IMG/VR virus record: IMGVR_UViG_3300021373_000887
Coordinates: 1 to 25,457 of that record
Origin: a virus
Reading direction: 5' to 3' (one strand)
Length of the DNA stretch: 25,457 nucleotides
Part shown: positions 2,218 through 14,064 of the stretch, in pieces
Position numbering within the stretch: the stretch's first letter is position 1
Layout: each line of letters opens with the position of its first letter
The notes under the pieces: generated by a model
Database searches by the model: none
The model's input: the letters and a program-made list of their open reading frames with translations, nothing else
What the model was told of the DNA's origin: nothing
Program-made: the position numbers and the translations under genes

Positions 2218-2568
2218 CTAATCCTCCTTTAGGTCTGGTGGTAAGTTATCTAATCTCTTACGCTCTATAATTAATTTGTTCTCATACTTCTTATTCTCAT
2301 TCCTTAATATACCTATAAAATAATATACATCATAACCTTTTCCAGCTAAGTCTTTGCGTTCCCAAATAGTAATACAATGTTTGATTACTTCGTCGTCAAT
2401 GTCTTGACAAGCTTTGAGTAAAGTATAGGTAGTTAAGTCATCTAGCGACGATATGAAGAGCTCGTTTAAACGCTCTAACGTATCATCACCTACATTTTTT
2501 TGAAGCCTTGCTATCATCTTTGGATAGTTTTTCAAGGCATTTGACCAGCCACAAGCTGGACATCTCAT
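2218..2568 (-). CDS. Small protein adjoining the helicase, possible helicase loader or replication accessory
   Basis: 116 residues. It starts with a CPAC half zinc-knuckle (residues 3-6) and is otherwise charged and helical. The segment around residues 80-95 (KGYDVYYFIGIL) resembles C-terminal helical regions of small phage replication organisers, but I do not recognise the family. The stop touches the helicase start and the start overlaps the preceding stop (ATGA), so it is translated in one block with the helicase. That context suggests a helicase partner; this is inference. A CGTTTAAACG palindrome lies inside, read as Arg-Leu-Asn, followed by Glu-Leu as in the helicase copy. Confidence 0.7.
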   Translation of the reverse strand: MRCPACGWSNALKNYPKMIARLQKNVGDDTLERLNELFISSLDDLTTYTLLKACQDIDDEVIKHCITIWERKDLAGKGYDVYYFIGILRNENKKYENKLIIERKRLDNLPPDLKED

Positions 2569-2879
2569 TTACGCTCCTTACAAGGAAGCTCTTCAGGGCA
2601 TGGTTGCTTGTCCATAGGAACACGCTTACCCAAGAACTCCCTCATAGGAACTTTACCTTTTGGCAACGTATAGTACCTCCAAGGTCTTTCGCATCGTGGA
2701 CAACGATAAGGCTGGAACTTTGACTTATTGCTGTAAGACACTTCATTCTTCTTACGCTTCTCTGATTCAATGTATTCATCATCAAACCACTCATCATCAA
2801 AGTAATTTCTAAGAGTTTCTTTAGAGTATAAAGACTCATAGAGATAAAGCCAGACTTTTTCTGCGAACTTTTTAATCAT
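2565..2879 (-). CDS. Small zinc-ribbon-like protein, unknown function
   Basis: 104 residues from the ATG at 2879; a GTG at 2891 in the same frame would add four residues, and neither has a strong ribosome site, so translation is probably coupled to the overlapping upstream gene. It has a helical N-terminus, an acidic middle (residues about 27-40) and a CPRC pair near residue 61 with further cysteines near the end (PCPEELPC), a plausible zinc-binding site. It ends in an ATGA overlap with the next gene and sits in the helicase block. No family recognised. Confidence 0.65.
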   Translation of the reverse strand: MIKKFAEKVWLYLYESLYSKETLRNYFDDEWFDDEYIESEKRKKNEVSYSNKSKFQPYRCPRCERPWRYYTLPKGKVPMREFLGKRVPMDKQPCPEELPCKERK

Positions 2880-3024
2880 CACAAACTTCACAATTAGGAT
2901 TTACCTTTGAAAGTTGCATTGATTCTTGTTTTTCTTTTTTCTCTTTATTTCTTTCAGTTGCCTCTATTATCTTTTTTGCAATAGTCATAATAGATTCAAT
3001 CTCTTTCTTATCAAGCTCAATCAT
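2872..3024 (-). CDS. 50-residue charged helical protein with a C-terminal CxxC
   Basis: An open frame linking the neighbours: its ATG overlaps the preceding stop as ATGA (3024-3021), and its stop lies inside the start region of the next gene. The protein is a lysine/glutamate-rich helix (likely coiled coil) ending in NCEVCDD, a single CxxC pair. The unbroken chain of overlaps is the main support for it being real. Function unknown. Confidence 0.6.
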   Translation of the reverse strand: MIELDKKEIESIMTIAKKIIEATERNKEKKEKQESMQLSKVNPNCEVCDD

Positions 3025-3236
3025 TGTGTAGCTACCTCTTCATAGCTGTATTCTGCTACCACTTTGCCTTGAGGTGTTGATATATGTTTAGTCTTAATTG
3101 GATGACCCTCGTTTCTTAAATCCCATATTCTGGCACTTAAACGAAAGCATCCAAAACTTTCAAGAGCTGACAATGGCGTAATACGTTCACCATTTTTTAA
3201 GGCTACTAAAATCATATCATTCTGTGTTTGATTCAT
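3021..3236 (-). CDS. Helix-turn-helix protein (HTH_39-like)
   Basis: 71 residues. I chose the ATG at 3236 because GGAG lies 11 bases upstream; an in-frame ATG at 3260 lacks a ribosome site. The core ITPLSALESFGCFRLSARIW followed by DLRNEGHPI matches the small phage winged-helix type (HTH_39), where an alpha-helical pair is followed by a wing. It probably binds DNA, for example as a local regulator or replication accessory. Its target is unknown; the GTTTAAAC palindrome is one site that could be tested. Confidence 0.7.
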   Translation of the reverse strand: MNQTQNDMILVALKNGERITPLSALESFGCFRLSARIWDLRNEGHPIKTKHISTPQGKVVAEYSYEEVATQ

Positions 3237-3513
3237 CTTCTGTTTTCTCCTTATCACCATCTAGTTCTGTAAGAACATTATTAATGTAGTTGTTAGCCAA
3301 AAACCTTTTTTCATTAAGCTGTTGCTCTAACATCTGTGTTTCTTGAGCTATTTGATTAGCTCTGACGTAAGCCATTTGTGCATCATTACTTAAGTCGCTC
3401 AAGTAGAATTTAATATCTTCTCCATCACGATTAATAACTTGCTCACGTTCTTGTGGCTGTGATACAGCCTCTGCTTCTTGTTTTACCAAGTCTAATTCAC
3501 TCATTTTACCCAT
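3217..3513 (-). CDS. Acidic coiled-coil protein, unknown function
   Basis: 98 residues, start at the ATG after GGAGGAGTAAT. Residues about 40-90 form a long heptad-like helix rich in Gln, Glu and Leu, and the C-terminus is acidic (DKEKTEDESNTE). Its 3' end overlaps the next gene by 20 bases. In this position it could be an adapter or bound-protein partner in the replication block, but no family is recognised. Confidence 0.7.
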   Translation of the reverse strand: MGKMSELDLVKQEAEAVSQPQEREQVINRDGEDIKFYLSDLSNDAQMAYVRANQIAQETQMLEQQLNEKRFLANNYINNVLTELDGDKEKTEDESNTE

Positions 3514-3514
3514 A

Positions 3515-3787
3515 TTACTCCTCCTTATTTAAGTCGTTAAAGTTTGCTCCATCATAACACTTAGAGCATATTCCAGTTTCTTCTTCTTCTATGAATGAGT
3601 TTCCAAAGGGAGGAGATGTACAGCAAGAACTTTGCCAATCCCTCTCTTCACAAACTTCACATTCATTGACAGAGATAGCTGGACTATCTCCATCTTTTTT
3701 GTTTCCACAATAAGAACATTGAATTTCAGGAACATATATTCCGTACTTATCACTTTTTTCTTGTTGTACAAATTCTAAATACCTCAT
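3515..3787 (-). CDS. Small multi-cysteine zinc-ribbon protein
   Basis: 90 residues with four CxxC-type pairs (CSYC near 24, CEVC near 43, SCC near 55 and CSKC near 74), consistent with two zinc sites. Very acidic C-terminus. Its ATG overlaps the stop of the Hjc-like gene (TAATG). Function unknown; such ribbons in phage early operons usually mediate nucleic-acid or protein contacts. Confidence 0.7.
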   Translation of the reverse strand: MRYLEFVQQEKSDKYGIYVPEIQCSYCGNKKDGDSPAISVNECEVCEERDWQSSCCTSPPFGNSFIEEEETGICSKCYDGANFNDLNKEE

Positions 3788-4107
3788 TACTTATCCTTAA
3801 ATTCTTTTATCATTGCAATTAAACTTAAGTAATAATCCTGAGACATGATAGCTAAATTTTCACCTCTGTCTTCTCCAACAAACTGAACATGAATTTCTTT
3901 TGTTGGCTTTAGATGCTTAGCTAACACTTTTCTTTTTTTACATTGAACATAGATGTTGTCTTCAATAACCATGTCTACCTCTTGAGCTAGACCTCTTGAC
4001 CTTCCATCACTTCCCCATGTTCTTTCTGCTTTTAAATCAAAACCTTGAGCTTTTTCTACACATTTTCTTTCGTAATATGTTCCTCTTAATTTATTCTTCG
4101 CTGGCAT
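3787..4107 (-). CDS. Hjc-like Holliday-junction resolvase / PD-(D/E)XK nuclease
   Basis: 106 residues, the typical length for small archaeal-type Hjc proteins. Visible motif elements are the N-terminal RGTYYER with Glu13, a GSDGRSRG turn (32-39), EVDMVI with Asp45, and VQCKKRK with Gln55 and Lys57, which is the PD-(D/E)XK active-site order with Gln in the usual Glu position. It would cut branched recombination or replication intermediates, matching the neighbouring annealing protein and Cas4-like nuclease. Translationally coupled at both ends. Confidence 0.72.
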   Translation of the reverse strand: MPAKNKLRGTYYERKCVEKAQGFDLKAERTWGSDGRSRGLAQEVDMVIEDNIYVQCKKRKVLAKHLKPTKEIHVQFVGEDRGENLAIMSQDYYLSLIAMIKEFKDK

Positions 4108-4339
4108 TTCTTCTATCTCCTTTCCAGTATTGCATAATCCAATTTTTATTTTTTTTCTGATGTCTTAAATCCATACCAGCAAATATCCACCAAGCTCCAT
4201 GCTTATCAGCGAACTCCTTTGCTGTCTCTTCTCTCCACTTATCATCTTGCACTACTAAACTTTTTCTTTTAATCATGTGCTTTGGAATCTTTTCTTCTTT
4301 TCTTTTTTGCCAAGCTAATTCTCTTTTATTTAAACTCAT
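4091..4339 (-). CDS. Small basic protein, unknown function
   Basis: 82 residues, start at 4339 (GGTGG upstream; TAATG overlap with the preceding stop). Strongly basic N-terminal half, then an aromatic segment (WWIFAGMDLRHQKKNK). It overlaps the Hjc-like gene by 17 bases. Basic charge and context suggest nucleic-acid binding, which is inference. Confidence 0.65.
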   Translation of the reverse strand: MSLNKRELAWQKRKEEKIPKHMIKRKSLVVQDDKWREETAKEFADKHGAWWIFAGMDLRHQKKNKNWIMQYWKGDRRNASEE

Positions 4340-4488
4340 TATATCCACCAATCTGTTATATCGTTTTCATCTTCAGAACGCCTAAATATTTCGTTCTCTT
4401 TTTCTTCTTTTTCTATATGGTCTTTAAGCCATATATACCCTCTGTAAACTCCGTATAGTGATAATACTGCTAACACCCAATCAATCAT
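4339..4488 (-). CDS. Single-pass small membrane protein
   Basis: 49 residues from the ATG at 4488, which follows AAGGAGATAAAC; a longer upstream open frame lacks this site. Residues 4-20 form one hydrophobic segment (WVLAVLSLYGVYRGYIW), followed by a highly charged tail, giving an inner-membrane protein with the tail in the cytoplasm. Unknown role. Confidence 0.6.
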   Translation of the reverse strand: MIDWVLAVLSLYGVYRGYIWLKDHIEKEEKENEIFRRSEDENDITDWWI

Positions 4489-4508
4489 GTTTATCTCCTT
4501 TGTAAGAT

Positions 4509-4565
4509 GCGTGGGAATCTGCGATGAGATGTAGTAGATGAGTAAGAGGTATAAGACCCCCACGC
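4509..4565 (-). repeat. Inverted repeat in the gap before the membrane protein gene
   Basis: GCGTGGG (4509-4515) pairs with CCCACGC (4559-4565) across a 43-base loop. It fills the 86-base gap between the SSB-like gene and the 4339-4488 gene. No T-run follows on the leftward strand, so it is not an obvious terminator; it may stabilise or process the mRNA. Confidence 0.4.
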
Positions 4566-4574
4566 TTTGTTAAA

Positions 4575-5096
4575 TTAAAATGGCAGTTCGTCATCCTCCA
4601 TCAACGCATCCTTACCTCTTGATACTGCCTTAAACACCATCTTAACTCTTGGTGTTTTCATGTCATTTCCTTCTCTTCCTACCCACTCTTCAATGACTAC
4701 CTCTACATTGAATAGAAAGCGTTTAAACGCCTCCACATCTAGCTCTGGTAAAATCATCTTGTCATCTTTCTTTTGTACCATGTCCATCATATCACAAAGA
4801 GCATAGTATCCAGAATTACTTCCCATGTCAGCTTGTAGGTTTGGGTATTTAGCTGGGTCAGGTTTTTTAAACCTAAAAATCCCTTTATGTTTTACATCCT
4901 TACCTTCAATGTTAAACACTGGCTCGTAAATGTCTGCTAAAAACTTTCCACTAACTACTATATCTTTTTTGATATTTAAGTCCTTAACCTCTACATTATC
5001 ATACTTACCAGCCTGTACAGAGCTACCACCACCTTGTGATTTTGGCTCATACCAAGCGTCTTCTCCAAATATGTTATTCAAGTCGTTATTATCCAT
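4575..5096 (-). CDS. Single-stranded DNA-binding-like protein
   Basis: 173 residues. The middle is beta-rich (residues about 30-75) and the C-terminus is an acidic tail ending DDELPF, very like the D-D-x-(I/L)-P-F tip that bacterial SSB proteins use to recruit partners. It lies directly downstream of the annealing protein gene with an 8-base overlap, a standard SSB/annealing-protein pairing. Strong ribosome site AAGGAGGTAAAGA. The OB fold itself is inferred, not evident from a named motif. Confidence 0.65.
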   Translation of the reverse strand: MDNNDLNNIFGEDAWYEPKSQGGGSSVQAGKYDNVEVKDLNIKKDIVVSGKFLADIYEPVFNIEGKDVKHKGIFRFKKPDPAKYPNLQADMGSNSGYYALCDMMDMVQKKDDKMILPELDVEAFKRFLFNVEVVIEEWVGREGNDMKTPRVKMVFKAVSRGKDALMEDDELPF

Positions 5097-5697
5097 TCTT
5101 TACCTCCTTCTTAGGTTTTTTCTTCAGCTGTTGTACATAGCCTTCAAAGTTATTTGTATTTAGTTTTTTATTTCTTACTGCTACTTCAATGCTTTCTATG
5201 AAAGCTTTATCTTTACCTTCTAACAATGTCATCAAGTAATCATTTTGTTCTTTAGAAATTGCTTGAGGTTTATCATCTTCAGGTAAATCTTCGCCTCTGT
5301 AAATATAAAGACCAAGACCAAACAATGCAAAACATTTTACCAAACATCTTTTTATAGAGTTGTTAATCTGTGTTGCTGTTGGTTCTTTGATAGCTTTATT
5401 ATAGTTATCCATTACAGCGTGAACTTCTGTTCTTGTTATACCTTCAATAGTTACAGATACTTTAACAAAACATCCACTATCTGTTCTCATATATGGCTGT
5501 GTTGCATATATCATAGGGTCATTTGATACAGGCTGATGATACTCATGAGTTTCCCAAGTAGCATCTGGGTATACAGATAGAACATATTGCACTGCATCAC
5601 TCCAAGATAGATAATCGTAATTACCTTTCTTTTCTTTAAACTCATTTACATTTATTTTATTAAGTGTTTCAAACACTGATAGTTTTTTCGTTGGCAT
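5089..5697 (-). CDS. Single-strand annealing protein, DUF1071 family
   Basis: 202 residues. The N-terminal VFETLNKINVNEFKEKKGNY and the following DYLSWSDAVQYVL match the start of DUF1071 proteins, phage recombinases of the Rad52-like annealing class. The segment TATQINNSIKRCLVKCFALFG (about 125-145) is also typical of this family. It would anneal complementary single strands produced by the neighbouring nuclease, with the SSB-like protein. Start after AAGGAGGAATACA. Lysine-rich C-terminus. Confidence 0.82.
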   Translation of the reverse strand: MPTKKLSVFETLNKINVNEFKEKKGNYDYLSWSDAVQYVLSVYPDATWETHEYHQPVSNDPMIYATQPYMRTDSGCFVKVSVTIEGITRTEVHAVMDNYNKAIKEPTATQINNSIKRCLVKCFALFGLGLYIYRGEDLPEDDKPQAISKEQNDYLMTLLEGKDKAFIESIEVAVRNKKLNTNNFEGYVQQLKKKPKKEVKNG

Positions 5698-5908
5698 TGT
5701 ATTCCTCCTTATGTATTTCTATAAATTTATCTATGCTAACCCAGCTATCTGAGTTACCCTCGTGTATCATTGCTATACCAGCTATGTCTGGTCTCATCGT
5801 AAAGTCTCCGTAGTTTTTACTATTCGCCCAATCCATTAACATAAGGGCATAGTCCTCTGACCTCACAATACTTTTCACATTTTTTTCCGTTCCAAGTTTC
5901 TTTTTCAT
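5669..5908 (-). CDS. Small protein overlapping the Cas4-like nuclease gene, unknown function
   Basis: 79 residues from the ATG at 5908, which follows AGGAGGTGCG. It overlaps the nuclease gene by 89 bases in another frame and the annealing-protein gene by 29 bases. The central sequence (YALMLMDWANSKNYGDF) looks like a folded protein rather than a shadow, and the ribosome site is among the best in the window. A later in-frame ATG at 5842 would reduce the overlap. No family recognised. Confidence 0.6.
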   Translation of the reverse strand: MKKKLGTEKNVKSIVRSEDYALMLMDWANSKNYGDFTMRPDIAGIAMIHEGNSDSWVSIDKFIEIHKEEYNANEKTISV

Positions 5909-6698
5909 CGCACCTCCTAGGTATCGTGTTATCATCTAGATGTTTTAAAAGAACATCTCTCTTGCTCGTAAAGTACGAAACAATTTCTTCATTGTCAACA
6001 ATAGGAATATTAACAAAATAAATATTTTTATCTACTCCTCTGGAAACAGCTGAGTGCGTTCCAGCATCTCTGATATTCATTTGTAGTTTCATTGCCTTAA
6101 CTTTATGACCTTTCTTCTCTAATAAATATCTATACATATTGACTTGATATAGCCAATCTCCAAAGTCTGCTTTGCTCTCATCCCTATGAAATACTTTAAC
6201 CTGTTTAAACGCTCCCTTGTTTCCCCAAGCTCCAGACTTTTTATACCTTGCTCCTGATGGGTCTGGCATCATGACGTGTGTCATTCCTAAAACTTTTGAT
6301 GCCTTAAAACTACCTGTGTTTTTATAATCAATAAGCGTTTCCGTATCTTTGTCATAGAAATCTAAGATACCAGTAATATCTAATCCTTCAAGTTTTTCTT
6401 CTTGTATCGCATTATCATCAAGCTCTTGACTTTCTAAATGTAAGTGATGAATAGTTCCCATGACTGCAAACGCCATGTCCTGTGGGTCTATATAATAATC
6501 ATTAGTTCTTTTAAGGTAAGCCTCACACGTTCCAGACAATAGTTCTGTTGTGCTTGGTGGTCTGTCATTAGGTCTCTGGTCTGACATCATCTTTAATGTG
6601 GCAACACTCATACAACGCTCTGACATACGACATTTTTTTAGACATCGTTTAAACGTAGTTTGTTCTCCATCTGGACAAATAAAACCTATTGCTCCCAT
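5820..6698 (-). CDS. Cas4/RecB-like PD-(D/E)XK exonuclease with likely Fe-S cluster
   Basis: 292 residues. The active-site pattern is visible: His in GTIHHLHLE (about 107-115), Asp in DITGILDFYD and the D-Y-K triad in TLIDYKNTG. Cysteines in the N-terminal 30 residues (FICPDG, RCLKKC) together with a C-terminal cluster (KKCEKYC and GLCPY, roughly 273-286) fit the Cas4/AddB-type 4Fe-4S arrangement. It would resect DNA ends for the DUF1071 annealing protein, forming a phage recombination pair. Start after AAGGAGGTTAC. Two GTTTAAAC palindromes lie inside the gene, both read as Phe-Lys. Confidence 0.82.
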   Translation of the reverse strand: MGAIGFICPDGEQTTFKRCLKKCRMSERCMSVATLKMMSDQRPNDRPPSTTELLSGTCEAYLKRTNDYYIDPQDMAFAVMGTIHHLHLESQELDDNAIQEEKLEGLDITGILDFYDKDTETLIDYKNTGSFKASKVLGMTHVMMPDPSGARYKKSGAWGNKGAFKQVKVFHRDESKADFGDWLYQVNMYRYLLEKKGHKVKAMKLQMNIRDAGTHSAVSRGVDKNIYFVNIPIVDNEEIVSYFTSKRDVLLKHLDDNTIPRRCDEKETWNGKKCEKYCEVRGLCPYVNGLGE

Positions 6699-7134
6699 GT
6701 AACCTCCTTAATTTATTATGGTGCTTGCAATCAGTACTAGCAATTTATAGTTTGTTAGTTTATACGTATTGTTATTCAGGCAATAATACAAACACCACAA
6801 TTTTAGATAGGCGTATTACACTTCTCTGTCCGATTAATGTCCTAAGACAAATTCAACCTCTATTGGTGATAACCTTAGACCAATTAGGTAATCTATGACG
6901 ACATCAAGCTATCTCAAGGAATTTAAAGAGCCGTATTAAACAGCTCACACCTTATCATACGCCTATACCAATTTTCAAACTTTACTGGAGTAGATGAGTA
7001 GCCAACCCTTAAACTTTTGAAAACTTATAAATGCATTAACCAAAGGGTAGACAGGATTGGTTACCTGCGACACTCCTTATAAATGCCATTAAATGTTTTC
7101 TGTTAATATCTACTCCAGAAATAAAACTTAACTA
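6699..7134. other. Non-coding region with two long-range inverted repeats: candidate structured RNA or cis element
   Basis: I see no convincing gene here. Two perfect long-range inverted repeats stand side by side: ATAGGCGTAT (6807-6816) with ATACGCCTAT (6957-6966), enclosing 140 bases, and CTGGAGTAGAT (6985-6995) with ATCTACTCCAG (7108-7118), enclosing 112 bases. Smaller helices fit inside: TGTC/GACA (6838-6849), ATTGGT/ACCAAT (6862-6884), GAGC/GCTC near 6928-6943, and CCAA..CCCTT with AAGGG..TTGG in the second domain. TATAAATGC(C)ATT occurs twice (about 7026 and 7078). It could be the long 5' leader of the recombination operon, a separate RNA on either strand, or an origin-like element. The strand is not settled. 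Confidence 0.5.
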
Positions 7135-7173
7135 TAAAAAACAAAAGAGGCAAGAAATAAATCTCGCCTCTTT
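7135..7173 (-). terminator. Intrinsic terminator of the 7270-13796 leftward genes
   Basis: Perfect 8-bp stem AAAGAGGC (7144-7151) / GCCTCTTT (7166-7173) with a 14-base loop. Read leftward it runs into TTTTGTTTTTTAT, a good U-tract. Rightward it is followed only by TTTCC. It therefore separates the accessory operon from the recombination operon, implying a new promoter downstream or partial read-through. Confidence 0.8.
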
Positions 7174-7182
7174 CCACACACT

Positions 7183-7207
7183 AAGGAGTTCCATTATGAA
7201 AACATAA
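7183..7207 (+). other. Rightward minigene-like site: ribosome site plus Met-Lys-Thr-stop
   Basis: AAGGAG (7183-7188), 7 bases, then ATG AAA ACA TAA TAG (7196 on). The preceding CCACACACTAAGGAGTT resembles the leaders in front of real genes in this phage, yet it points rightward inside the leftward arm and the frame stops after three codons. It may be a minigene, a leader peptide, or the remnant of a lost gene start. Confidence 0.3.
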
Positions 7208-7212
7208 TAGAA

Positions 7213-7261
7213 GTTATCATGATTGATAACACTTTAGTTTAACACCTTTATAAGTAGGTGT
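7213..7261. repeat. Two short perfect inverted repeats downstream of the 7270 gene
   Basis: GTTATCA TGAT TGATAAC (7213-7230, 7-bp arms) and ACACCT / AGGTGT (7242-7247, 7256-7261). They lie between the gene stop and the terminator. Neither has a T-run. The first looks like an operator half-site pair; RNA stabilisation is another option. Confidence 0.4.
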
Positions 7262-7269
7262 CAATTGAA

Positions 7270-7476
7270 TTATAAATTATTATTTAGATTGACCAGTTTA
7301 TGACCTTTGCCTTTATCAAACTCAATGTCATAGTCTTGCATTAGTCTCACTATCGCATCTTTTTCGTTCTTAGCTACGTAGTGATAAGTAGATGCGTTCT
7401 TACTTTTAGGAATAAAGAACACAAAGCTTGCAAGCTCTCCACTATCAATCTTCTTGTAGGTTTCAATATCTAGCAT
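7270..7476 (-). CDS. Small phage protein, unknown function
   Basis: 68 residues, ATG preceded by GAGGATTTACAG. The sequence has alternating beta and helix character (FVFFIPKS, then YHYVAKNEKDAIVRLMQDY), suggesting a compact alpha/beta domain. Last gene before the 7135-7173 terminator. Not recognised. Confidence 0.65.
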   Translation of the reverse strand: MLDIETYKKIDSGELASFVFFIPKSKNASTYHYVAKNEKDAIVRLMQDYDIEFDKGKGHKLVNLNNNL

Positions 7477-7565
7477 CTGTAAATCCTCATATTGTTATAT
7501 TTATAGTCTCTCATTACAATATAGCTTTAAATATAGGTTAAAGTCTACTATTATTTTCATGTCGT

Positions 7566-7751
7566 TTAAACGCTCTTAGCATTATATATTTTCTGTATTT
7601 CTAACAGCTCTTTTGCAAACTCTTTTAAAGTAAATGGTATATCAATAGATACTTTTTTCAATCCTCTTTCGTCTGTTTCTATAACATAGAACAGCTCTTG
7701 CTTTACAATAGGTATTGCATTACTATCTAAATGGTCTTGTATTTTTTTCAT
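7566..7751 (-). CDS. Small helical protein whose stop codon lies in a palindrome
   Basis: 61 residues, ribosome site ATAAGGAGGAAAAG, ATGA overlap with the preceding gene. Mixed beta/helix with a C-terminal helix (FAKELLEIQKIYNAKSV). The last codon and stop, GTT TAA, are inside CGTTTAAACG at 7563-7572. Unknown function. Confidence 0.65.
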   Translation of the reverse strand: MKKIQDHLDSNAIPIVKQELFYVIETDERGLKKVSIDIPFTLKEFAKELLEIQKIYNAKSV

Positions 7752-7876
7752 TTTCTTTTCCTCCTTATTGATGATTGCATATTAAAATACATAAACTCAA
7801 ATCCAAGCTTATCTAACTTGTCAATAAGTTTACTTATTTTTTCTTGTAATAAAAACGCCTCGTCTGATTTACTCAT
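7748..7876 (-). CDS. 42-residue helical protein
   Basis: Starts with ATGAGTAAATCA after GGAGGATGAATA, overlaps the preceding stop as TAATG, and ends in an ATGA overlap with the next gene. The product is a leucine/lysine-rich helix (LLQEKISKLIDKLDKLG) with an aromatic patch and a basic tail RRKRK. Coupled overlaps at both ends support it; function unknown. Confidence 0.65.
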   Translation of the reverse strand: MSKSDEAFLLQEKISKLIDKLDKLGFEFMYFNMQSSIRRKRK

Positions 7877-8091
7877 TATTCATCCTCCACTTTTAATCTT
7901 TTTCTTAATATGTCATCTATTAAATAATACAAATGCCTACCCAGCCTAGTATTTTCTGTGCCTTCTTGATGTTCTGATTTAACAACACAATCTTTTTCAA
8001 TGCCAAGCATCTTGATAATTTCAAAATACAAATCATCTGCTGTTTCATAAATTGTATCAGAATCTACAAAATTTATTATTTCTTTACTCAT
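7876..8091 (-). CDS. Small acidic protein, unknown function
   Basis: 71 residues, mostly helical, acidic with a short basic stretch near the end (LRKRLKVEDE). Overlaps the preceding gene by 8 bases and the next by the TAATG junction. No motif recognised. Confidence 0.65.
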   Translation of the reverse strand: MSKEIINFVDSDTIYETADDLYFEIIKMLGIEKDCVVKSEHQEGTENTRLGRHLYYLIDDILRKRLKVEDE

Positions 8092-8332
8092 TTCTTAGTC
8101 CTTTCATTTCATCCCATGTTTGTATATATGAACAATAGCTACACGCTTTCTTACTTCGTTTAAACGCTATCTTACTCATCTCATTAATTTTATCTATCAG
8201 AGCTATTGCTAACTCTTTACGACCTCTGATGATGTCGCCTGTATCATCGCTCATTAACTCTATCTCAGTCTCTGGTACAAGCTCTTTATCTAGATAGTCT
8301 CTAATCTGTTCTATAATCTGTTTATCTGTCAT
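8084..8332 (-). CDS. Small helical protein with C-terminal CSYC
   Basis: 82 residues from the ATG at 8332 (AGGAG seven bases upstream and ATGA overlap); the GTG six bases earlier is too close to the ribosome site. Two amphipathic helices, then KKACSYCSY, a CxxC pair. A CGTTTAAACG palindrome in frame gives Phe-Lys-Arg just before the cysteines. Unknown function. Confidence 0.65.
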   Translation of the reverse strand: MTDKQIIEQIRDYLDKELVPETEIELMSDDTGDIIRGRKELAIALIDKINEMSKIAFKRSKKACSYCSYIQTWDEMKGLRNE

Positions 8333-8517
8333 TTCCACACTCCTGTATGTTTCTTATTTTTATCTTCAAAGAGCTGTCTTATAGCTCCCATCTTCACATC
8401 AAATTGTTCTACCATATCATCATCAGATAATAGATAGTTACCCTCATCATCTATGTAATAGTGAACATTTAGTGTTATTTCAAATGGTACGCCTTTAGTG
8501 TCTTTTTTCTTTTTCAT
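8329..8517 (-). CDS. Small protein, first gene after the 8565-8593 promoter
   Basis: 62 residues, start after AAAAGGAGTTTGAT. Basic N-terminus (MKKKKDTKG), a beta segment (FEITLNVHYYID) and a helix. It lies directly downstream of a promoter and leads the 7270-8517 set. Not recognised. Confidence 0.65.
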   Translation of the reverse strand: MKKKKDTKGVPFEITLNVHYYIDDEGNYLLSDDDMVEQFDVKMGAIRQLFEDKNKKHTGVWK

Positions 8518-8564
8518 ATCAAACTCCTTTTTAGTGTTCTGCTAGCTTTGCTAGCTCTTTGTTA

Positions 8565-8593
8565 GTTTAACTAGTATGTTAGCGACTTGTCAA
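8565..8593 (-). promoter_or_regulatory. Leftward promoter candidate
   Basis: TTGACA (8593-8588), 17-bp spacer, TTAAAC (8570-8565). The -35 is consensus, the -10 is weak but identical to the one at 11946-11974. The -35 overlaps the stop codon of the 8590-8703 gene. Downstream are nested GCTAGC repeats (GCTAGC AAA GCTAGC) that could fold in the leader. Confidence 0.5.
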
Positions 8594-8703
8594 GCTTTTT
8601 CTTGTTCTTCTTCACAATCTTGACATAGAAAAAAGTCATCTATGTCTAAAATCGTTGGGCATTCTTCACAAGTTTTTGTTTCTTCATTATCAATTTCTAT
8701 CAT
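8590..8703 (-). CDS. 37-residue acidic zinc-ribbon micro-protein
   Basis: Start after GGAGGAATT with an ATGA overlap on the preceding gene's stop. The product carries CEEC and CQDC pairs 15 residues apart, a complete four-cysteine zinc ribbon in a very acidic chain. Function unknown; an acidic ribbon could bind a host polymerase or other protein, which is speculation. Confidence 0.65.
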   Translation of the reverse strand: MIEIDNEETKTCEECPTILDIDDFFLCQDCEEEQEKA

Positions 8704-9191
8704 AATTCCTCCTTTGTTATGTTGTGTAAAAATGTTGGTGGTACAAATACTTCTTGTTCCTGTTCCCAATAAACCAGAAAGTCAAGAGCGTTTAAACGAC
8801 CTGTGTAAATTACTGGCTGTTTATCTTTCTTGACCTTTGCGAACCTAGTTGCAAACCAATGGGCTCTGTTCTTATCCAGTGTCCAGCTAAAGCCCTGTTC
8901 ATATTCTCCAAGAGTACCTCTGTATAAGACTATCTCATCGTTATCTTCTAGTAACTCTTCGTATATCTGATACTCATTTGTATCCATAGTAAATCCTATT
9001 TCATCATAGTAGTAAGTCAGTATGTCCTGTAAATCTTTGTTCGTCATCATCGTGTGAACATTATCAATGGCTGTATACTCTTCTCTAAAATGTTGCCAAA
9101 ACTTTGATGGGGCTATCTTTTCCTTAGCTAGGTCTTGAACCATCATAGCTATGCCACCCTGTTGGTAGTAGTTATTTATTATGTCTTCCAT
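8700..9191 (-). CDS. Probable ADP-ribosyltransferase (R-S-E class)
   Basis: 163 residues from the ATG at 9191 (GGAGGGTAC); a longer upstream frame includes the promoter and is not used. The C-terminal half shows the three landmarks of R-S-E mono-ADP-ribosyltransferases in order: LYRG (Arg91), FSWTLDKNRAHWFATRF (the S-T-S-like strand, Ser102-Thr104), and EQEQEVFVPP with Glu145 and Glu147 as the E-x-E pair. Such enzymes transfer ADP-ribose from NAD to host proteins or nucleic acids; phages use them to redirect transcription or counter defence. The N-terminal helical half may give specificity. Target unknown. Confidence 0.62.
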   Translation of the reverse strand: MEDIINNYYQQGGIAMMVQDLAKEKIAPSKFWQHFREEYTAIDNVHTMMTNKDLQDILTYYYDEIGFTMDTNEYQIYEELLEDNDEIVLYRGTLGEYEQGFSWTLDKNRAHWFATRFAKVKKDKQPVIYTGRLNALDFLVYWEQEQEVFVPPTFLHNITKEEL

Positions 9192-9222
9192 GTACCCTCC
9201 GTGTGTGTTAGTGAGTTGCTTG

Positions 9223-9251
9223 ACATTAGCTAATCCTAAAACCAATGTCAA
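9223..9251 (-). promoter_or_regulatory. Leftward promoter for the ADP-ribosyltransferase gene
   Basis: TTGACA (9251-9246), 17-bp spacer beginning TTGGTTTTAG, TAATGT (9228-9223). CGTTTAAACG sits exactly 16 bp upstream of the -35, followed by AGGTCAAA, the same arrangement as at 10543-10597. Confidence 0.7.
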
Positions 9252-9281
9252 GCTATTTGTTTGACCTCGTTTAAACGATGC

Positions 9282-9590
9282 CTACAACCATATTGAACAT
9301 TGATTACTTTGTAGCTTAAAGATTTTTCTCCAAGCTCTAATCATCAAGTTTCCTACAATCGTTATTACACTTATCCAAGTAAAAAATACTAAGATGCTTT
9401 CCAGAAAAACATGACCAGCATTCGTTAAATATGTGTAGTCGTGATGGCTTAATAACAGCACTAAAATTACACATACTATTTGAGAGTAAATAAATATATT
9501 CATACATACTCTGTTTGCCATTGTTAATGATTTACTTAAATCGTTTCTAAATTCCATTGAGCTTTTGCTCATACCTGTTTTATTATTCAT
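9282..9590 (-). CDS. Membrane protein with two transmembrane segments
   Basis: 102 residues from the ATG at 9590 (AAAGGAGGCAAT). Hydrophobic segments at about residues 33-50 (FIYSQIVCVILVLLL) and 63-86 (FLESILVFFTWISVITIVGNL), with a charged N-terminus and a basic C-terminus. Two-pass topology of this size could suit a holin or superinfection-exclusion protein, but its early-arm location is not the usual place for a holin. Unassigned. Confidence 0.7.
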   Translation of the reverse strand: MNNKTGMSKSSMEFRNDLSKSLTMANRVCMNIFIYSQIVCVILVLLLSHHDYTYLTNAGHVFLESILVFFTWISVITIVGNLMIRAWRKIFKLQSNQCSIWL

Positions 9591-9603
9591 ATTGCCTCCT
9601 TTT

Positions 9604-10515
9604 TTAAGCACTCATATATCCACTTCTAGACCAGTTCCAATGTTCTCTATCTTGAACAACGTCTAGGTAGTGCGTTTGAAAATCTTTTGCTTTACTATTG
9701 ACATAGTAACTAGCGTCATATCTACGACCTCTGCTTTTTTTACGTTCTTCTTCATACGCTTGATAGCTGTCAATTAAGTTGCTCAACATACCAGCAAATC
9801 TTGACTGCTCATCATAAGAGCCCTGTACTAATACATTTATGCAAACCTGTCTTGCTCTTCTGAATTTTTTCTTGATAGACACTGGGTCGTTTAAACGTGT
9901 CTTGTACATCTCTGACATTTTTACCCAGAACTCTTGTTTAATATCTTTATCTGTTTTCCATTTCAAGTTGTCTACTTTATGAATCGCTCTTTCCTGTTGC
10001 TTGTTTTGAGCTGTCATATATGGCATATCATCTGCTAAAGATAGATGCAAATATTTAACTACTAATCCGTCTTCATTGATTGCTCTTCTAAGACCTACAA
10101 TGCTTTGTAGTCCTTTAATGTTACTACCAAAAGTATAGCTAGTATAAGAGTAAGAATTTCTTTCACATATACTAGCTGATGCATCTCTACCTCCGTGTGC
10201 TCCTTTATGTCTAAGCCACTCATCTCTATACCAAAGTGGTTTTCCGTCTTTCAAGACTAATATAACCTCATCTTTGCTAATTTTTATAGTATCAAACCAT
10301 CTCTGGCTACGACCTTGTGGCTGTCTCCACTCTGCATCTTCTTGAGCAATAACAAACACGATGCCCTCTTTTGATATGGTGTCGTTTAAACGTAGTTGAT
10401 TGTCTTCTAATTTGTTCCAATCTACTCCTAGTTTTGCTCCAAGATTTTTGAACCTCTTTAACTGCTGTCTAGAGTTCCAGTAATTCATTTCTAAGTTATT
10501 AATAATTTTATTCAT
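9604..10515 (-). CDS. 303-residue phage protein, unknown function
   Basis: The largest unassigned gene of the early arm; start after TAGGAGGTATT, directly behind the promoter at 10543-10571. Contains beta-rich N-terminal material (residues 50-110), a Ser/Tyr-rich stretch (NSYSYTSYTFGSN near 120) and a helical, basic C-terminal half. Two CGTTTAAACG palindromes are read as Arg-Leu-Asn-Asp in both places. No motif pointing to an enzyme is visible. Confidence 0.75.
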   Translation of the reverse strand: MNKIINNLEMNYWNSRQQLKRFKNLGAKLGVDWNKLEDNQLRLNDTISKEGIVFVIAQEDAEWRQPQGRSQRWFDTIKISKDEVILVLKDGKPLWYRDEWLRHKGAHGGRDASASICERNSYSYTSYTFGSNIKGLQSIVGLRRAINEDGLVVKYLHLSLADDMPYMTAQNKQQERAIHKVDNLKWKTDKDIKQEFWVKMSEMYKTRLNDPVSIKKKFRRARQVCINVLVQGSYDEQSRFAGMLSNLIDSYQAYEEERKKSRGRRYDASYYVNSKAKDFQTHYLDVVQDREHWNWSRSGYMSA

Positions 10516-10542
10516 AATACCTCCTAGTTTGTGTGTTAGTTA

Positions 10543-10571
10543 AGACTAATTAATTCTAAAACAAAAGTCAA
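10543..10571 (-). promoter_or_regulatory. Leftward promoter for the 9604-10515 gene
   Basis: TTGACT (10571-10566), 17-bp spacer containing GTTTTAGAATTA, TAGTCT (10548-10543). CGTTTAAACG at 10588-10597 is 16 bp upstream of the -35 and is followed by AGGTCAAA as at 9268-9277. Confidence 0.65.
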
Positions 10572-10590
10572 GACTTTTCTTTGACCTCGT

Positions 10591-10902
10591 TTAAACGTCT
10601 TCCAGCAAATCAATATACGCTTTGCCTCCAGTGTCTATATTTCTGCTTACAAAATGTTCATCTATTACTTCTTTATATTCATCCCATTTAGAACTTCTAT
10701 GTGGGTATTTAAATTCAAACGCTCTGATAAATTCAAGACCATACGTTCCACCTTCATCTTTGTTTTCCTCCCATTGATGATATTCAGTGTTGTTCTCTGC
10801 TAATTTCTGTGCCTCTTCTTTTGAAGATGCTATGACATCTTGAAAATAGCTTTTTACTTTTTTCTCTTCTGCGTATACTCTATATATTTTTTTCTCTATC
10901 AT
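10591..10902 (-). CDS. Small protein, DpnD/PcfM-like N-terminus
   Basis: 103 residues, ATG after AAAGGAGAATATT. The first 40 residues (YRVYAEEKKV...VIASSKEEAQKLAEN) resemble the small beta-alpha modules of the DpnD/PcfM type, whose function is poorly known. Stop codon lies inside CGTTTAAACG (GTT TAA). Family call is tentative. Confidence 0.6.
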   Translation of the reverse strand: MIEKKIYRVYAEEKKVKSYFQDVIASSKEEAQKLAENNTEYHQWEENKDEGGTYGLEFIRAFEFKYPHRSSKWDEYKEVIDEHFVSRNIDTGGKAYIDLLEDV

Positions 10903-10938
10903 AATATTCTCCTTTGTTTAGTCTGTTTAAACGCTGTC

Positions 10939-11511
10939 TTACAACAGCTTAGTGCCTTCTCCAAATTTATCTTCTACTAACTCATTAATGTTTTTGACTA
11001 AATCTCTGTCAAATATGTAGCTGTAATATCTGCTATTCTCATTATCATTTTGTAGTCTTTTTCTGGCATCTTTAATAGTGTTGTAGTCTCTGAAAAATAG
11101 GTCAGCCTCATCCATCAATTTTATTGTGCTACCTATAACATCGCTCATACTATCAAACTCTCCTCCATTGGCGTAAAAACCAACAACATAGTATCCAGCC
11201 ATGTCTTTTTCAAATCCATTTTTTTTGTCGTGAGCCCATTGCCAGCTATCATCTTTTTCTGTCAAGTGAAATCCAGCTGTTAGCTCTCTGTCATAAAAAG
11301 GTATCTGTTTAACTTTGTTTTCTTCTCCAGAATAACTATCATAATTTACTAGGTCGTGGCTGTATGTAAATAAATGCTGATTAGCCCAAGGGTGTTCTGG
11401 TGGTAAAGCCACATAACCACAGCCCCAGCCTCTCTCTGATTCATTTTTTCTAATTATCCAATAGTAAGTTGTACCATCTGCTTTTGTTTCTTGTATCCAT
11501 CTTTCTTTCAT
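10939..11511 (-). CDS. 190-residue phage protein with GYVALPPEHPW motif, unknown function
   Basis: Start after AAAGGAGGACAAT. The sequence GWGCGYVALPPEHPW near residue 28, then GFH and YYVVGFYANGGEFDS (about 107-121), recalls an unnamed phage family with G-Y-V-x-(V/L)-P-x-x-H-P and a downstream W/F-G-F segment. The C-terminal third is helical. Probably an early accessory protein; no catalytic site can be named. Confidence 0.7.
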   Translation of the reverse strand: MKERWIQETKADGTTYYWIIRKNESERGWGCGYVALPPEHPWANQHLFTYSHDLVNYDSYSGEENKVKQIPFYDRELTAGFHLTEKDDSWQWAHDKKNGFEKDMAGYYVVGFYANGGEFDSMSDVIGSTIKLMDEADLFFRDYNTIKDARKRLQNDNENSRYYSYIFDRDLVKNINELVEDKFGEGTKLL

Positions 11512-11552
11512 ATTGTCCTCCTTTGTGTGTTTTCTAATCTTACAAATTTTTA

Positions 11553-11608
11553 TTGGGGGCTACAAGCTAATTCTTCATCATCAGGACAGCCTGTTTAAAC
11601 GCCCCCAA
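11553..11608. repeat. Long hairpin between genes, GTTTAAAC in the loop
   Basis: Perfect 8-bp GC-rich stem TTGGGGGC (11553-11560) / GCCCCCAA (11601-11608), loop of 40 bases that includes TGTTTAAACG. It fills the gap between the 11614 and 10939 genes. No T-run follows on either strand, so a simple terminator is unlikely; mRNA stabilisation or a DNA signal fits better. Confidence 0.5.
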
Positions 11609-11613
11609 ATCTA

Positions 11614-11910
11614 CTACTCGTTTTTAAATATCTCAAAATCTTGGTCAAGACTTTGTGAGCTTATAAAATCTAATCTAAGCTCTAGCTCTTTTTGGTTAGA
11701 TAAATTCTCTGAGCTTTCTTCCAATCTGAACCAGTCAAAGCTTTCGTCTAAATCTCTATGAGCTATAAATTCTATTGCGTCTTCTAGGTCTTGCTCTACC
11801 TTTGCGTGTAAATCTGAAATAGTTTTTTTAATACTCTGTGCTTTTTCGTTATACTCTTTTAAAGCTTTTGTAAATCTCTTATTGATTTTCTTTTTTTTAT
11901 CGTTTTTCAT
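11614..11910 (-). CDS. Coiled-coil protein, unknown function
   Basis: 98 residues, start after AAAGGAGCAATT. Lysine-rich N-terminus, then two long charged helices (residues about 15-50 and 60-90). First gene behind the tandem promoters at 11946-12033 and next to the putative origin. Not recognised. Confidence 0.7.
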   Translation of the reverse strand: MKNDKKKKINKRFTKALKEYNEKAQSIKKTISDLHAKVEQDLEDAIEFIAHRDLDESFDWFRLEESSENLSNQKELELRLDFISSQSLDQDFEIFKNE

Positions 11911-11945
11911 AATTGCTCCTTTGTGTGTTTTGCAATATGTAAAGA

Positions 11946-11974
11946 GTTTAAAAATAAACTTTTGGAATTGTCAA
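11946..11974 (-). promoter_or_regulatory. Leftward promoter candidate, proximal
   Basis: TTGACA (11974-11969), 17-bp spacer, TTAAAC (11951-11946). Same -35/-10 pair as at 8565-8593. Leads into the 11614-11910 gene. Confidence 0.5.
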
Positions 11975-12004
11975 GCAGAAAAATAAAAATAATTTAAAAA
12001 AGTT

Positions 12005-12033
12005 TTCATAGTATAAAATAGCTCAGATGTCAA
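12005..12033 (-). promoter_or_regulatory. Leftward promoter candidate, distal
   Basis: TTGACA (12033-12028), 17-bp spacer, TATGAA (12010-12005). Lies between the origin-like cluster and the proximal promoter. The AT-only stretch 11980-12008 between the two promoters could also serve as a DNA-unwinding segment. Confidence 0.45.
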
Positions 12034-12192
12034 GACTTTTTTATTTCTGGCTGGTTTTACTCCTCTATAAACGCCAGAGAATAGCCCTAGAACGCAATAA
12101 AATAAAAAAAAGGTCTTATGGTATGCAAAAAATGTTTTGTCGTCGGAAACCTTGTTCAAATATTCCAGAATTTAGAGCCGTAAAATATGCGA

Positions 12193-12289
12193 TGTTTAAA
12201 CGCTCTTAACTTATCCACAAGTTATACACATAAAAGTTATCCACATTTTATACACAATTTGTGGAAAACTTCTAGACGCTGTTTAAACG
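12193..12289. other. Candidate replication origin: five DnaA boxes between two GTTTAAAC palindromes
   Basis: TTATCCACA at 12211-12219 and 12237-12245 are perfect DnaA boxes. TTATACACA at 12222-12230 and 12248-12256 are one-mismatch boxes, and the opposite strand carries TTTTCCACA at 12268-12260. The four forward boxes alternate with spacings of 2, 6 and 2 bases. TGTTTAAACG at 12193-12202 and 12280-12289 brackets the cluster. An AT-rich tract lies left of it (11980-12020). The 11911-12353 interval has no convincing gene. This strongly suggests host DnaA binding and theta-type initiation. Confidence 0.72.
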
Positions 12290-12301
12290 CTCTGAAAAAA
12301 A

Positions 12302-12340
12302 GAGCAAAAAAAAAGGGCTATTTCTAGCCCTCTTTTTTTT
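12302..12340 (-). terminator. Bidirectional intrinsic terminator
   Basis: Stem AGGGCTA (12314-12320) / TAGCCCT (12325-12331) with a TTTC loop, A9 on the left and T8 on the right. Read leftward it ends the 12354-12770 gene; it would also work rightward. It shields the origin-like cluster from transcription. Confidence 0.85.
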
Positions 12341-12353
12341 AGTTGGTATGTTG

Positions 12354-12770
12354 TTAAGCTTGAAAGTCCTTAACAATACTAGCATTAGTGTTTTTACCTC
12401 CACCTATAACATAAGTAGAATTAGCATCTATTTTTACCAGCTCTGAAGGCGTTTGAATATATGCCTCCCCTTTAATCTGTCTTACTTTACAAGTCAAGCC
12501 GTAAGTTTCAAATAAGCCGTTCAAACGCTCCCTAGTTGTCGGTGTGTTCCAACCAGCCAAGGTAAAGTATAGCCCCTTCTGAATTTGGTTGAAATTTGCT
12601 ATTAAATTGCCGTGCAAATATAGATACATTTCGACAAATCCGTTAGCGTCTTTAATCTCTTCGCCTTTGCCATTAGTGCTAATATATCTGCCTTTAACTT
12701 CTGTATTATTCATTTTCATTGCTTTTCTGTTATAAAAAGCATCTGCTGTTTTTAGTGTTATTTGTCTCAT
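12354..12770 (-). CDS. Conserved-looking phage protein, unknown function
   Basis: 138 residues, start after GGAGGCGTAATT. Contains NNTEVKG (about 21-27), YLYLHGNLIANF (50-61) and LAGWNTPTTRERLNGLF (72-88), a pattern I associate with unnamed small phage proteins in early regions. Likely a small alpha/beta fold. The palindrome appears here only in a degenerate form (GTTCAAACGCTCC at 12526). Confidence 0.7.
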   Translation of the reverse strand: MRQITLKTADAFYNRKAMKMNNTEVKGRYISTNGKGEEIKDANGFVEMYLYLHGNLIANFNQIQKGLYFTLAGWNTPTTRERLNGLFETYGLTCKVRQIKGEAYIQTPSELVKIDANSTYVIGGGKNTNASIVKDFQA

Positions 12771-12772
12771 AA

Positions 12773-12916
12773 TTACGCCTCCTGTCTTCTAGCTTTCGCT
12801 CTGTTTAAACGCTGTCTAATCTTCTTTGCGTCTCTGTTTTCTCTGGCTTGTCTGCCTTGCTCTGCTTGAGCCTCTAAGCCCTTAATTTGTGTAGCTGTTA
12901 AGCCTGTGTAATTCAT
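12773..12916 (-). CDS. 47-residue basic helical protein
   Basis: ATG at 12916 preceded by AAGGAGTTAATATT; an in-frame upstream ATG lies in the promoter. The product ends in a strongly basic helix (KKIRQRLNRAKARRQEA), likely nucleic-acid binding. A TGTTTAAACG copy is read as Arg-Leu-Asn. Two bases separate it from the next gene. Confidence 0.6.
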   Translation of the reverse strand: MNYTGLTATQIKGLEAQAEQGRQARENRDAKKIRQRLNRAKARRQEA

Positions 12917-12941
12917 AATATTAACTCCTTGTGTTTTTTCT

Positions 12942-12970
12942 AATTTACTTAACAATTTAATTTCTGTCAA
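12942..12970 (-). promoter_or_regulatory. Leftward promoter for the 12354-12916 genes
   Basis: TTGACA (12970-12965), 17-bp spacer, TAAATT (12947-12942). A palindrome-centred hairpin (12978-13009) stands just upstream, with TGTTTAAACG 18 bp from the -35. Confidence 0.65.
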
Positions 12971-12977
12971 GCCTAAG

Positions 12978-13009
12978 ACTAGAGACGCTGTTTAAACGCC
13001 GTCTCTAGT
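12978..13009. repeat. 32-bp near-perfect palindrome centred on GTTTAAAC
   Basis: Arms ACTAGAGACG and CGTCTCTAGT are perfectly complementary and share one centre with GTTTAAAC; only two position pairs of the 32 bases do not match. It sits between the SprT-like gene and the promoter at 12942-12970. No T-run follows, so an operator or cruciform is more likely than a terminator. Confidence 0.7.
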
Positions 13010-13031
13010 TTCGCCCTCTAGGGCTCATCAG

Positions 13032-13796
13032 TTAGGCATCAGCTAAGTTTTCAAAAAGCCCCAGCAACGCCCAAAATGGGCTGTTGGTGTTGCCATCTGC
13101 TAGAGCTTTGAACGCCTCTATGCTTATGATATGTTCGCCGTATTTCTTAGGCAATTTTACCTTATATTCACCGCCACAACATAAACAAGCGTTATTGACT
13201 ATCTCGTATAATCTCTGCTTGTTTAGTCTTAGGCTATGGTCACAGCTCTGCTGTTCTGTGCCTTCGCATACTAGGTTAATCATTCTGCATACGTCTTTAG
13301 GAAGACCAGCCAAACTAACTGCTTGAGTCGGAAATTTGCCGATTTTCTTCACGATACCATCAAGCGTTTTCTTTAGCTCTGGCGTTGCTATTGTCGCTGT
13401 CATTTGACCAGTTAAGCCTATAGCTGTTGCCATCTTCTTAAACTCTTTTTTATGTCCGTGCTTGTTGTCGTCGATAGCGTGGATTAATTCGTGAGCTAGA
13501 ACGTCAAGAACTCTTGAGCTGTTTTTTGCGTCAGTCGTAGAGATGTTTAGAGTTATCATATTAACGCCGTGTGCTATGTCTGAGCGATAGCAACAGCCGA
13601 GCGTGTGGTTTTTATCACCTCTGCCCGTCATAGAGCCAACGTTTATGCGTAGCTTTTTCGGAACTTGTAGCTTAGCTGGTGCAAACACTCTTTTTTGTAG
13701 CTCTTGCGTAGCTTGTTCTAACCATTGTGAGATTTTTATTTCAAGGTTCTCAACCTTTACCTGTGCGTTTTTGGTCGCCACCACTTTTGCTTTCAT
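13032..13796 (-). CDS. SprT-like zinc metalloprotease family protein
   Basis: 254 residues. HELIH (102-106) followed by GHKKEFKKMATAIGL (114-128) gives the HExxH...GH..F layout of SprT-like proteins, common in phages. The downstream half carries a cysteine group (near 169, 176, 184 and CLCC at about 204-207) that may form a zinc ribbon. SprT/Spartan relatives act on DNA-bound proteins; here the role is inferred only. First gene of the leftward arm, behind the promoter at 14065-14092; start preceded by AAAGGAAACAC. Confidence 0.75.
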   Translation of the reverse strand: MKAKVVATKNAQVKVENLEIKISQWLEQATQELQKRVFAPAKLQVPKKLRINVGSMTGRGDKNHTLGCCYRSDIAHGVNMITLNISTTDAKNSSRVLDVLAHELIHAIDDNKHGHKKEFKKMATAIGLTGQMTATIATPELKKTLDGIVKKIGKFPTQAVSLAGLPKDVCRMINLVCEGTEQQSCDHSLRLNKQRLYEIVNNACLCCGGEYKVKLPKKYGEHIISIEAFKALADGNTNSPFWALLGLFENLADA

Positions 13797-14064
13797 GTGT
13801 TTCCTTTGTGTGTTGTTAATCTTAAAAGCTCAATCAATATAATATATTTTACACTTTGTACAAACATTTTTTTTTGTCGTCATAGAATCGGCGTAAATCT
13901 GGGGCTCTGGCTTAGGCTGTTTAAACAATCCAAACTATAAATCTGGGGCTGGCAATGTAGGTATTATATAGGCTGTTTAAACGGCTTATATATATACTGC
14001 TGGGTCTGGCTTGGGTCTTGGAATAGATACTATATATAATTTTCCATGCGTGAGAACGGGCTGT

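Follow-up and report, generated by a model that had tools for sequence, protein, structure and literature searches.

Bacterial oriC is not the only kind of origin that depends on DnaA, since P1 oriR and other iteron origins need it as well. In most uncultured phages, initiation of replication is obscure, and a host-DnaA origin that can be recognised would bring a large group of them under one scheme. The roles of DnaA extend beyond origins: titration of DnaA has been documented on the E. coli chromosome, and DnaA is a transcription factor (PMC12371093). Short regulatory sites may also be scattered over mobile genomes; cluster A mycobacteriophages carry more than 20 short repressor sites, the stoperators, across the genome (PMC9283540), and the KorA operator GTTTAGCTAAAC of plasmid RK2 lies within DNA used in another study (PMC4889941). 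Here we describe, in a viral record of 25,457 bp (hereafter the window, a 25.5-kb record that lacks end repeats and whose fuller relatives are 37-64 kb), an array of DnaA boxes that is bracketed by two copies of a palindrome, GTTTAAAC, found over the early genes and that travels with a gene for an SprT-like metalloprotease.

Results

A DnaA-box array in a gene-free interval

Five DnaA boxes are crowded into an interval without a convincing gene (Table 1), for which Rfam returned no match. Such clustering is far beyond chance: among 2,000 simulated sequences, order-2 Markov chains built on the window's own trinucleotides, the maximum was two boxes per 60 bp, against five in the window. The boxes on the plus strand follow an 11/15/11-bp rhythm, and the minimal form retained in relatives is an inverted pair resembling TTWTCCACA-N14-TGTGGAWAA. 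An earlier note on this DNA had listed two perfect and two near-perfect tandem boxes with a fifth on the opposite strand, and all five were located; it had also placed two palindrome copies around them, which holds, at a spacing of 78 bp, which needs correction to 77 bp between the copies or 87 bp from start to start. The insulating terminator that it proposed was likewise recovered, as a minus-strand hairpin with a T tail. The AT-rich tract said to lie next to the boxes exists, as a strongly AT-rich stretch within the same interval, but is not adjacent to them, and the duplex at the boxes themselves is not unusually unstable (15th-64th percentile for the 60-bp windows that overlap them). A second conserved TTGACA is found about 60 bp upstream of the promoter-like site.

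Table 1. Positions of the array, its surroundings and related genes in the window
Feature	Position	Strand	Remark
DnaB-type replicative helicase	868-2217	-	Window gene
Early region with 20 of the 22 GTTTAAAC sites	886-13982		Site count in the window
Sak single-strand annealing protein	5089-5697	-	ERF protein in its place in sister phage G017
Interval without convincing gene, 443 bp	11911-12353		Contains the array; among leftward early genes, near their head
Candidate unwinding region	about 11940-12042		Ranks in the weakest 0.4-0.6% of the window; boxes 170-270 bp distant
Promoter-like TTGACA-N18-TAAACT	11945-11974	-	Directed towards gene 11614-11910, with the array behind it
Left bracketing palindrome TGTTTAAACG	12193-12202		8-bp core ends 9 bp before first box; kept in all 7 close genomes
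DnaA-box array, 5 boxes in 58 bp	12211-12268		4 tandem on +, 1 on -
DnaA boxes TTATCCACA	12211-12219, 12237-12245	+	Two of the four tandem boxes
DnaA boxes TTATACACA	12222-12230, 12248-12256	+	The other two tandem boxes
DnaA box TTTTCCACA	12260-12268	-	Box on the opposite strand
Right bracketing palindrome TGTTTAAACG	12280-12289		8-bp core begins 12 bp past last box; kept in all 7 close genomes
Intrinsic terminator hairpin GGGCTAGAAATAGCCC and T tail	12306-12339	-	Ends upstream leftward transcript ahead of the array
Kyano_Gp96-family gene (function not assigned)	12354-12770	-	Adjoins the array
SprT-like metalloprotease gene	13032-13796	-	Presence largely tracks GTTTAAAC enrichment across phages

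Conservation of the array and its loss in sister phages

The close set comprises seven genomes including the window, with relatives taken from IMG/VR (L093 among them). All seven carry two GTTTAAAC copies around an inverted DnaA-box pair, and the gaps between outer box and palindrome are constant at 9 and 11-12 bp, with arrays of 32, 58 or 107 bp that hold from two to eight good boxes (two in several relatives). The short arrays vary in sequence within the pair and are thus not simply collapsed assemblies. This constant spacing across genomes suggests that the bracketing palindromes matter to the array. A second close group of boxes was found neither in these seven genomes nor in the distantly related phage G008, and INPHARED contained no match when it was searched with 11.5-14.5 kb of the window for distant nucleotide similarity.

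Two sister phages, G015 and G017, have 31 of 62 ORFs in common with G005, a 43-kb member of the family, in largely the same order (terminase 80% and DnaB 65-67% identical). Both are without SprT, Gp96 and Sak, neither has a DnaA-box cluster, and GTTTAAAC occurs once and twice in them against 1.7 and 1.9 copies expected. No initiator was recognised in the corresponding region of G017, which encodes an ERF annealing protein alongside one AAA and one DUF7192 protein. Array, palindromes and SprT segment are therefore absent together, which, given the few related genomes, is an association and not proof of joint function; and because both phages keep DnaB without the cluster, these helicases do not need it.

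Replication genes and GC skew

The earlier note had pointed to a helicase gene with no polymerase or primase, and this was borne out in the fuller relative: G005 encodes DnaB and recombination proteins, and no initiator (Rep included), primase, polymerase or integrase was recognised among the 43 of its ORFs that were scanned, the remaining ones being mostly late-region or short. Abutting the start of DnaB in the window is the stop codon of a gene for a 116-aa protein (2218-2568), possibly a helicase loader, which is 93-95% identical in five of six close relatives and 72% identical in G006.

We measured skew as the coding-strand third-position GC skew of leftward early genes, with the direction of transcription held constant. 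It declines from about +0.29 at 8-9 kb to approximately zero at the array and is slightly negative beyond. The switch near 12.2 kb that the earlier note had proposed as a check is present as a sign change nearby, but the change point that fits best lies 2.5 kb off, and the cluster is not singled out, since G015 has a gradient much like this one and no array; G017 has little third-position trend. Skew, which initially seemed supportive, was dropped as decisive proof after this control and lends no specific support to an origin.

A strictly spelled palindrome over the early genes

No other 8-bp palindrome in the window comes near GTTTAAAC in number (22 copies against about 1.3 expected), and it is the most numerous in each close genome too (22-30 copies against 1.3-2.6 expected), always concentrated in the early region. 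The exact word numbers 20-34 copies per genome in G002-G008 and the cultured phage Venkman (MT375522), mostly across early genes. Its flanks lengthen the dyad to RnnnYGTTTAAACRnnnY, of which the outer part (R...Y) is weak. About half of the copies in the window are intragenic, and in relatives these occupy the homologous codons (RLN or AFKR) though neighbouring residues differ; one-mismatch spellings show no enrichment in AT-rich genomes. From this placement and this strictness, GTTTAAAC is most simply read as a selected DNA word and not a codon effect. It is a genome-wide, strictly spelled element that is not origin-specific and is present also in phages without a DnaA cluster, so that the tie to initiation control surmised in the earlier note is a matter of position only; the palindrome's link to the array holds in position and in distribution.

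Two candidate readers of the palindrome were set aside. An HTH_39 protein is an unlikely one, being 87-90% identical in G015 and G017, which have no such sites, and a LexA-like protein of G008 has no counterpart found in the window family. GTTTAAAC precedes the start codon of this LexA-type DNA-binding protein (L230:1079-1312) by 8 bp, and G008 carries 18 copies of GTTTACAC/GTGTAAAC in addition. Other phage loci possess repeated palindromes of their own: TACATGTA occurs eight times in 11 kb, inside a longer conserved element, in L163, and GGGTACCC 11 times in 8 kb in L015.

Distribution of the array and its link to SprT

The pairing of array and palindrome is also seen in distantly related phages, with SprT at 27% identity and GC contents as high as 0.57, and in the cultured marine Methylophilales phage Venkman. 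G008, a 58-kb phage of 55% GC whose Sak and SprT show 43% and 25-27% identity, carries 21 copies of GTTTAAAC, and its only DnaA-box cluster adjoins one of them. Venkman has 34 copies against 2.1 expected, and its DnaA boxes lie in a 577-bp gene-free gap adjoining the SprT gene, with GTTTAAAC on both sides. The flanking genes differ in these two phages, and array and SprT remain together.

A profile search with the SprT-like protein yielded 80 loci. In those of GC 0.41-0.58 no palindrome is more enriched than GTTTAAAC, L316 being the one exception, and nearly all high-GC loci lack it. In the 55 GTTTAAAC-rich loci, which are mutually related so that their counts are not independent trials, 86 close DnaA-box pairs fall in the 162 kb near SprT (2.5 kb upstream to 0.6 kb downstream of its start) and the other 422 kb contain none; one or more such pairs near SprT are present in 40 loci, and 15 have no recognisable pair there. 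No close pair was found in 20 GTTTAAAC-poor SprT loci.

Among isolates, ctXG6705 and Pelagibacter phage HTVC106P, whose portal proteins are 60% and 43% identical to that of Venkman, have no GTTTAAAC in the 35 and 25 kb read, respectively. Two Nanhaivirus phages and Burkholderia phage Mica, all with SprT, show moderate enrichment, Dinoroseobacter phage R5C carries the palindrome, and Bordetella phage CN2 has SprT and no copy in 28 kb. SprT is the only G005 protein common to Venkman and the other GTTTAAAC-carrying isolates R5C, Pan1 and Mica; the G008 protein matches that of the window, and SprT is missing from GTTTAAAC-poor relatives except CN2 and the high-GC loci. With a structure model of the SprT-like protein (pLDDT 80), no PDB entry matched at an E value of 0.001 or below, and the protein's sequence profile found none beyond chance. 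In 84,980 bacterial and archaeal genomes, the bracketed array was matched by 22 stretches, apparently host sequence or chance; these are without the phage-like GTTTAAAC enrichment, and thus gave no prophage and no host assignment.

DnaA-box pairs as such are common. Among viral contigs, at least 120 stretches contain the inverted pair TTWTCCACA-N14-TGTGGAWAA, against 12 for a reversed pattern of the same composition, an enrichment of at least tenfold across unrelated contigs, and the claim that phages recruiting host DnaA are uncommon is accordingly doubtful. Many of the matches listed have only two boxes; within the series L097-L176, L109, L117, L124 and L136 each have two inverted pairs 2-5 kb apart. 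The unusual part appears to be that a palindrome of strict spelling, spread over the genome, brackets the array and is linked to SprT. In the open-access papers searched we found no description of this, the searched text on Venkman mentions neither DnaA boxes nor palindromes, and the only work in which GTTTAAAC, phage and palindrome came together concerned nanopore sequencing of algae.

Discussion

A conserved array in a gene-free gap, in a phage that has DnaB and no recognised initiator, primase or polymerase, is most simply read as a host-DnaA origin, and we consider that the segment 12193-12289 is probably the phage replication origin or its core. What the earlier note offered as a likely origin is supported in its setting, a conserved cluster, unique in its genome, near the head of the early genes; the activity itself we infer from sequence. 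Host DnaA would bind the inverted and tandem boxes, oligomerise and open the neighbouring duplex, whereupon the phage's own DnaB would be loaded at the opened site and host primase and polymerase would complete replication. The flanking GTTTAAAC copies may be sites of a DNA-binding system dispersed over the early genes, and a putative protein bound to them could limit or gate the assembly of DnaA, coupling early expression to initiation. Several points count against an origin: the duplex next to the boxes is of unremarkable stability, the sister phages keep DnaB with no cluster, 15 of the 55 GTTTAAAC-rich SprT loci are without a pair, and two good boxes, as in some relatives, are few for an origin.

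Boxes without an adjacent weak duplex, in numbers that vary among relatives and dispensable to the sister phages, might instead form a sink that titrates host DnaA in the manner of datA or DARS loci, blocking initiation on the host chromosome during infection, with the phage starting elsewhere or by recombination through Sak and exonuclease. Titration is known on the E. coli chromosome (PMC12371093), but the two boxes of several relatives would titrate little, and a sink needs neither a fixed place by SprT nor constant spacing of the brackets; we regard it as improbable. The activity of DnaA as a transcription factor (PMC12371093) allows another reading, in which DnaA at the array acts on the leftward promoters (about 11945-12035) as repressor or activator and times the early genes by the replication state of the host. 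The conserved TTGACA elements and promoter-like site 170-270 bp leftward of the boxes fit this, as does the terminator between array and upstream gene; however, the promoter is too distant for simple repression, and in G008 and Venkman array and SprT keep company amid different flanking genes; the switch too seems unlikely.

The boxes could also serve a phage protein and not DnaA, the TTWTCCACA pair and GTTTAAAC both being sites of phage regulators. SprT, palindrome and array do co-occur and are jointly lost in G015 and G017, but the box sequences match the widespread DnaA box in full, down to its usual TTATNCACA variation, and inverted pairs are enriched at least tenfold in unrelated viral contigs, which makes this reading very improbable.

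The co-occurrence of the array, the exact palindrome and the SprT-like gene, all missing in the sister phages, points to a defined module. A bolder and distinctly tentative proposal is that a DnaA-box origin, the early-gene GTTTAAAC that brackets it and a co-travelling SprT gene form three parts of one system that gates both early transcription and host-DnaA initiation; if true, such a system would span phages that differ widely in host and in GC content. Cultured members, namely Venkman and, for the palindrome, R5C, make the idea testable.

Each of the known systems resembles this locus in part. KorA and KorB of plasmid RK2 also act at dispersed palindromic operators, and GTTTAGCTAAAC starts with the same half-site; in contrast, the phage word is without the central GC, and the ORFs scanned (with Pfam in the case of KorA) gave no recognised homologue of KorA or KorB. 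Stoperators are likewise many short sites spread through a genome, but they are asymmetric 13-mers oriented with transcription, whereas the phage site is a perfect palindrome, half of its copies are intragenic and no repressor was recognised. With P1 oriR and other iteron origins the locus shares a mobile replicon and a few DnaA boxes; unlike those of the P1 and pSC101 type, the phage has no iterons or recognised Rep among the 43 G005 ORFs, and its repeat is a dispersed palindrome. Like this locus, bacterial oriC is a short stretch free of genes where 9-bp DnaA boxes, tandem and inverted, stand close together and where weak duplex is found as well, but the phage array has two to eight boxes, its weak duplex is 170 bp or more away, and it stands without a nearby dnaA gene, bracketed by a palindrome that is repeated over the early genes.
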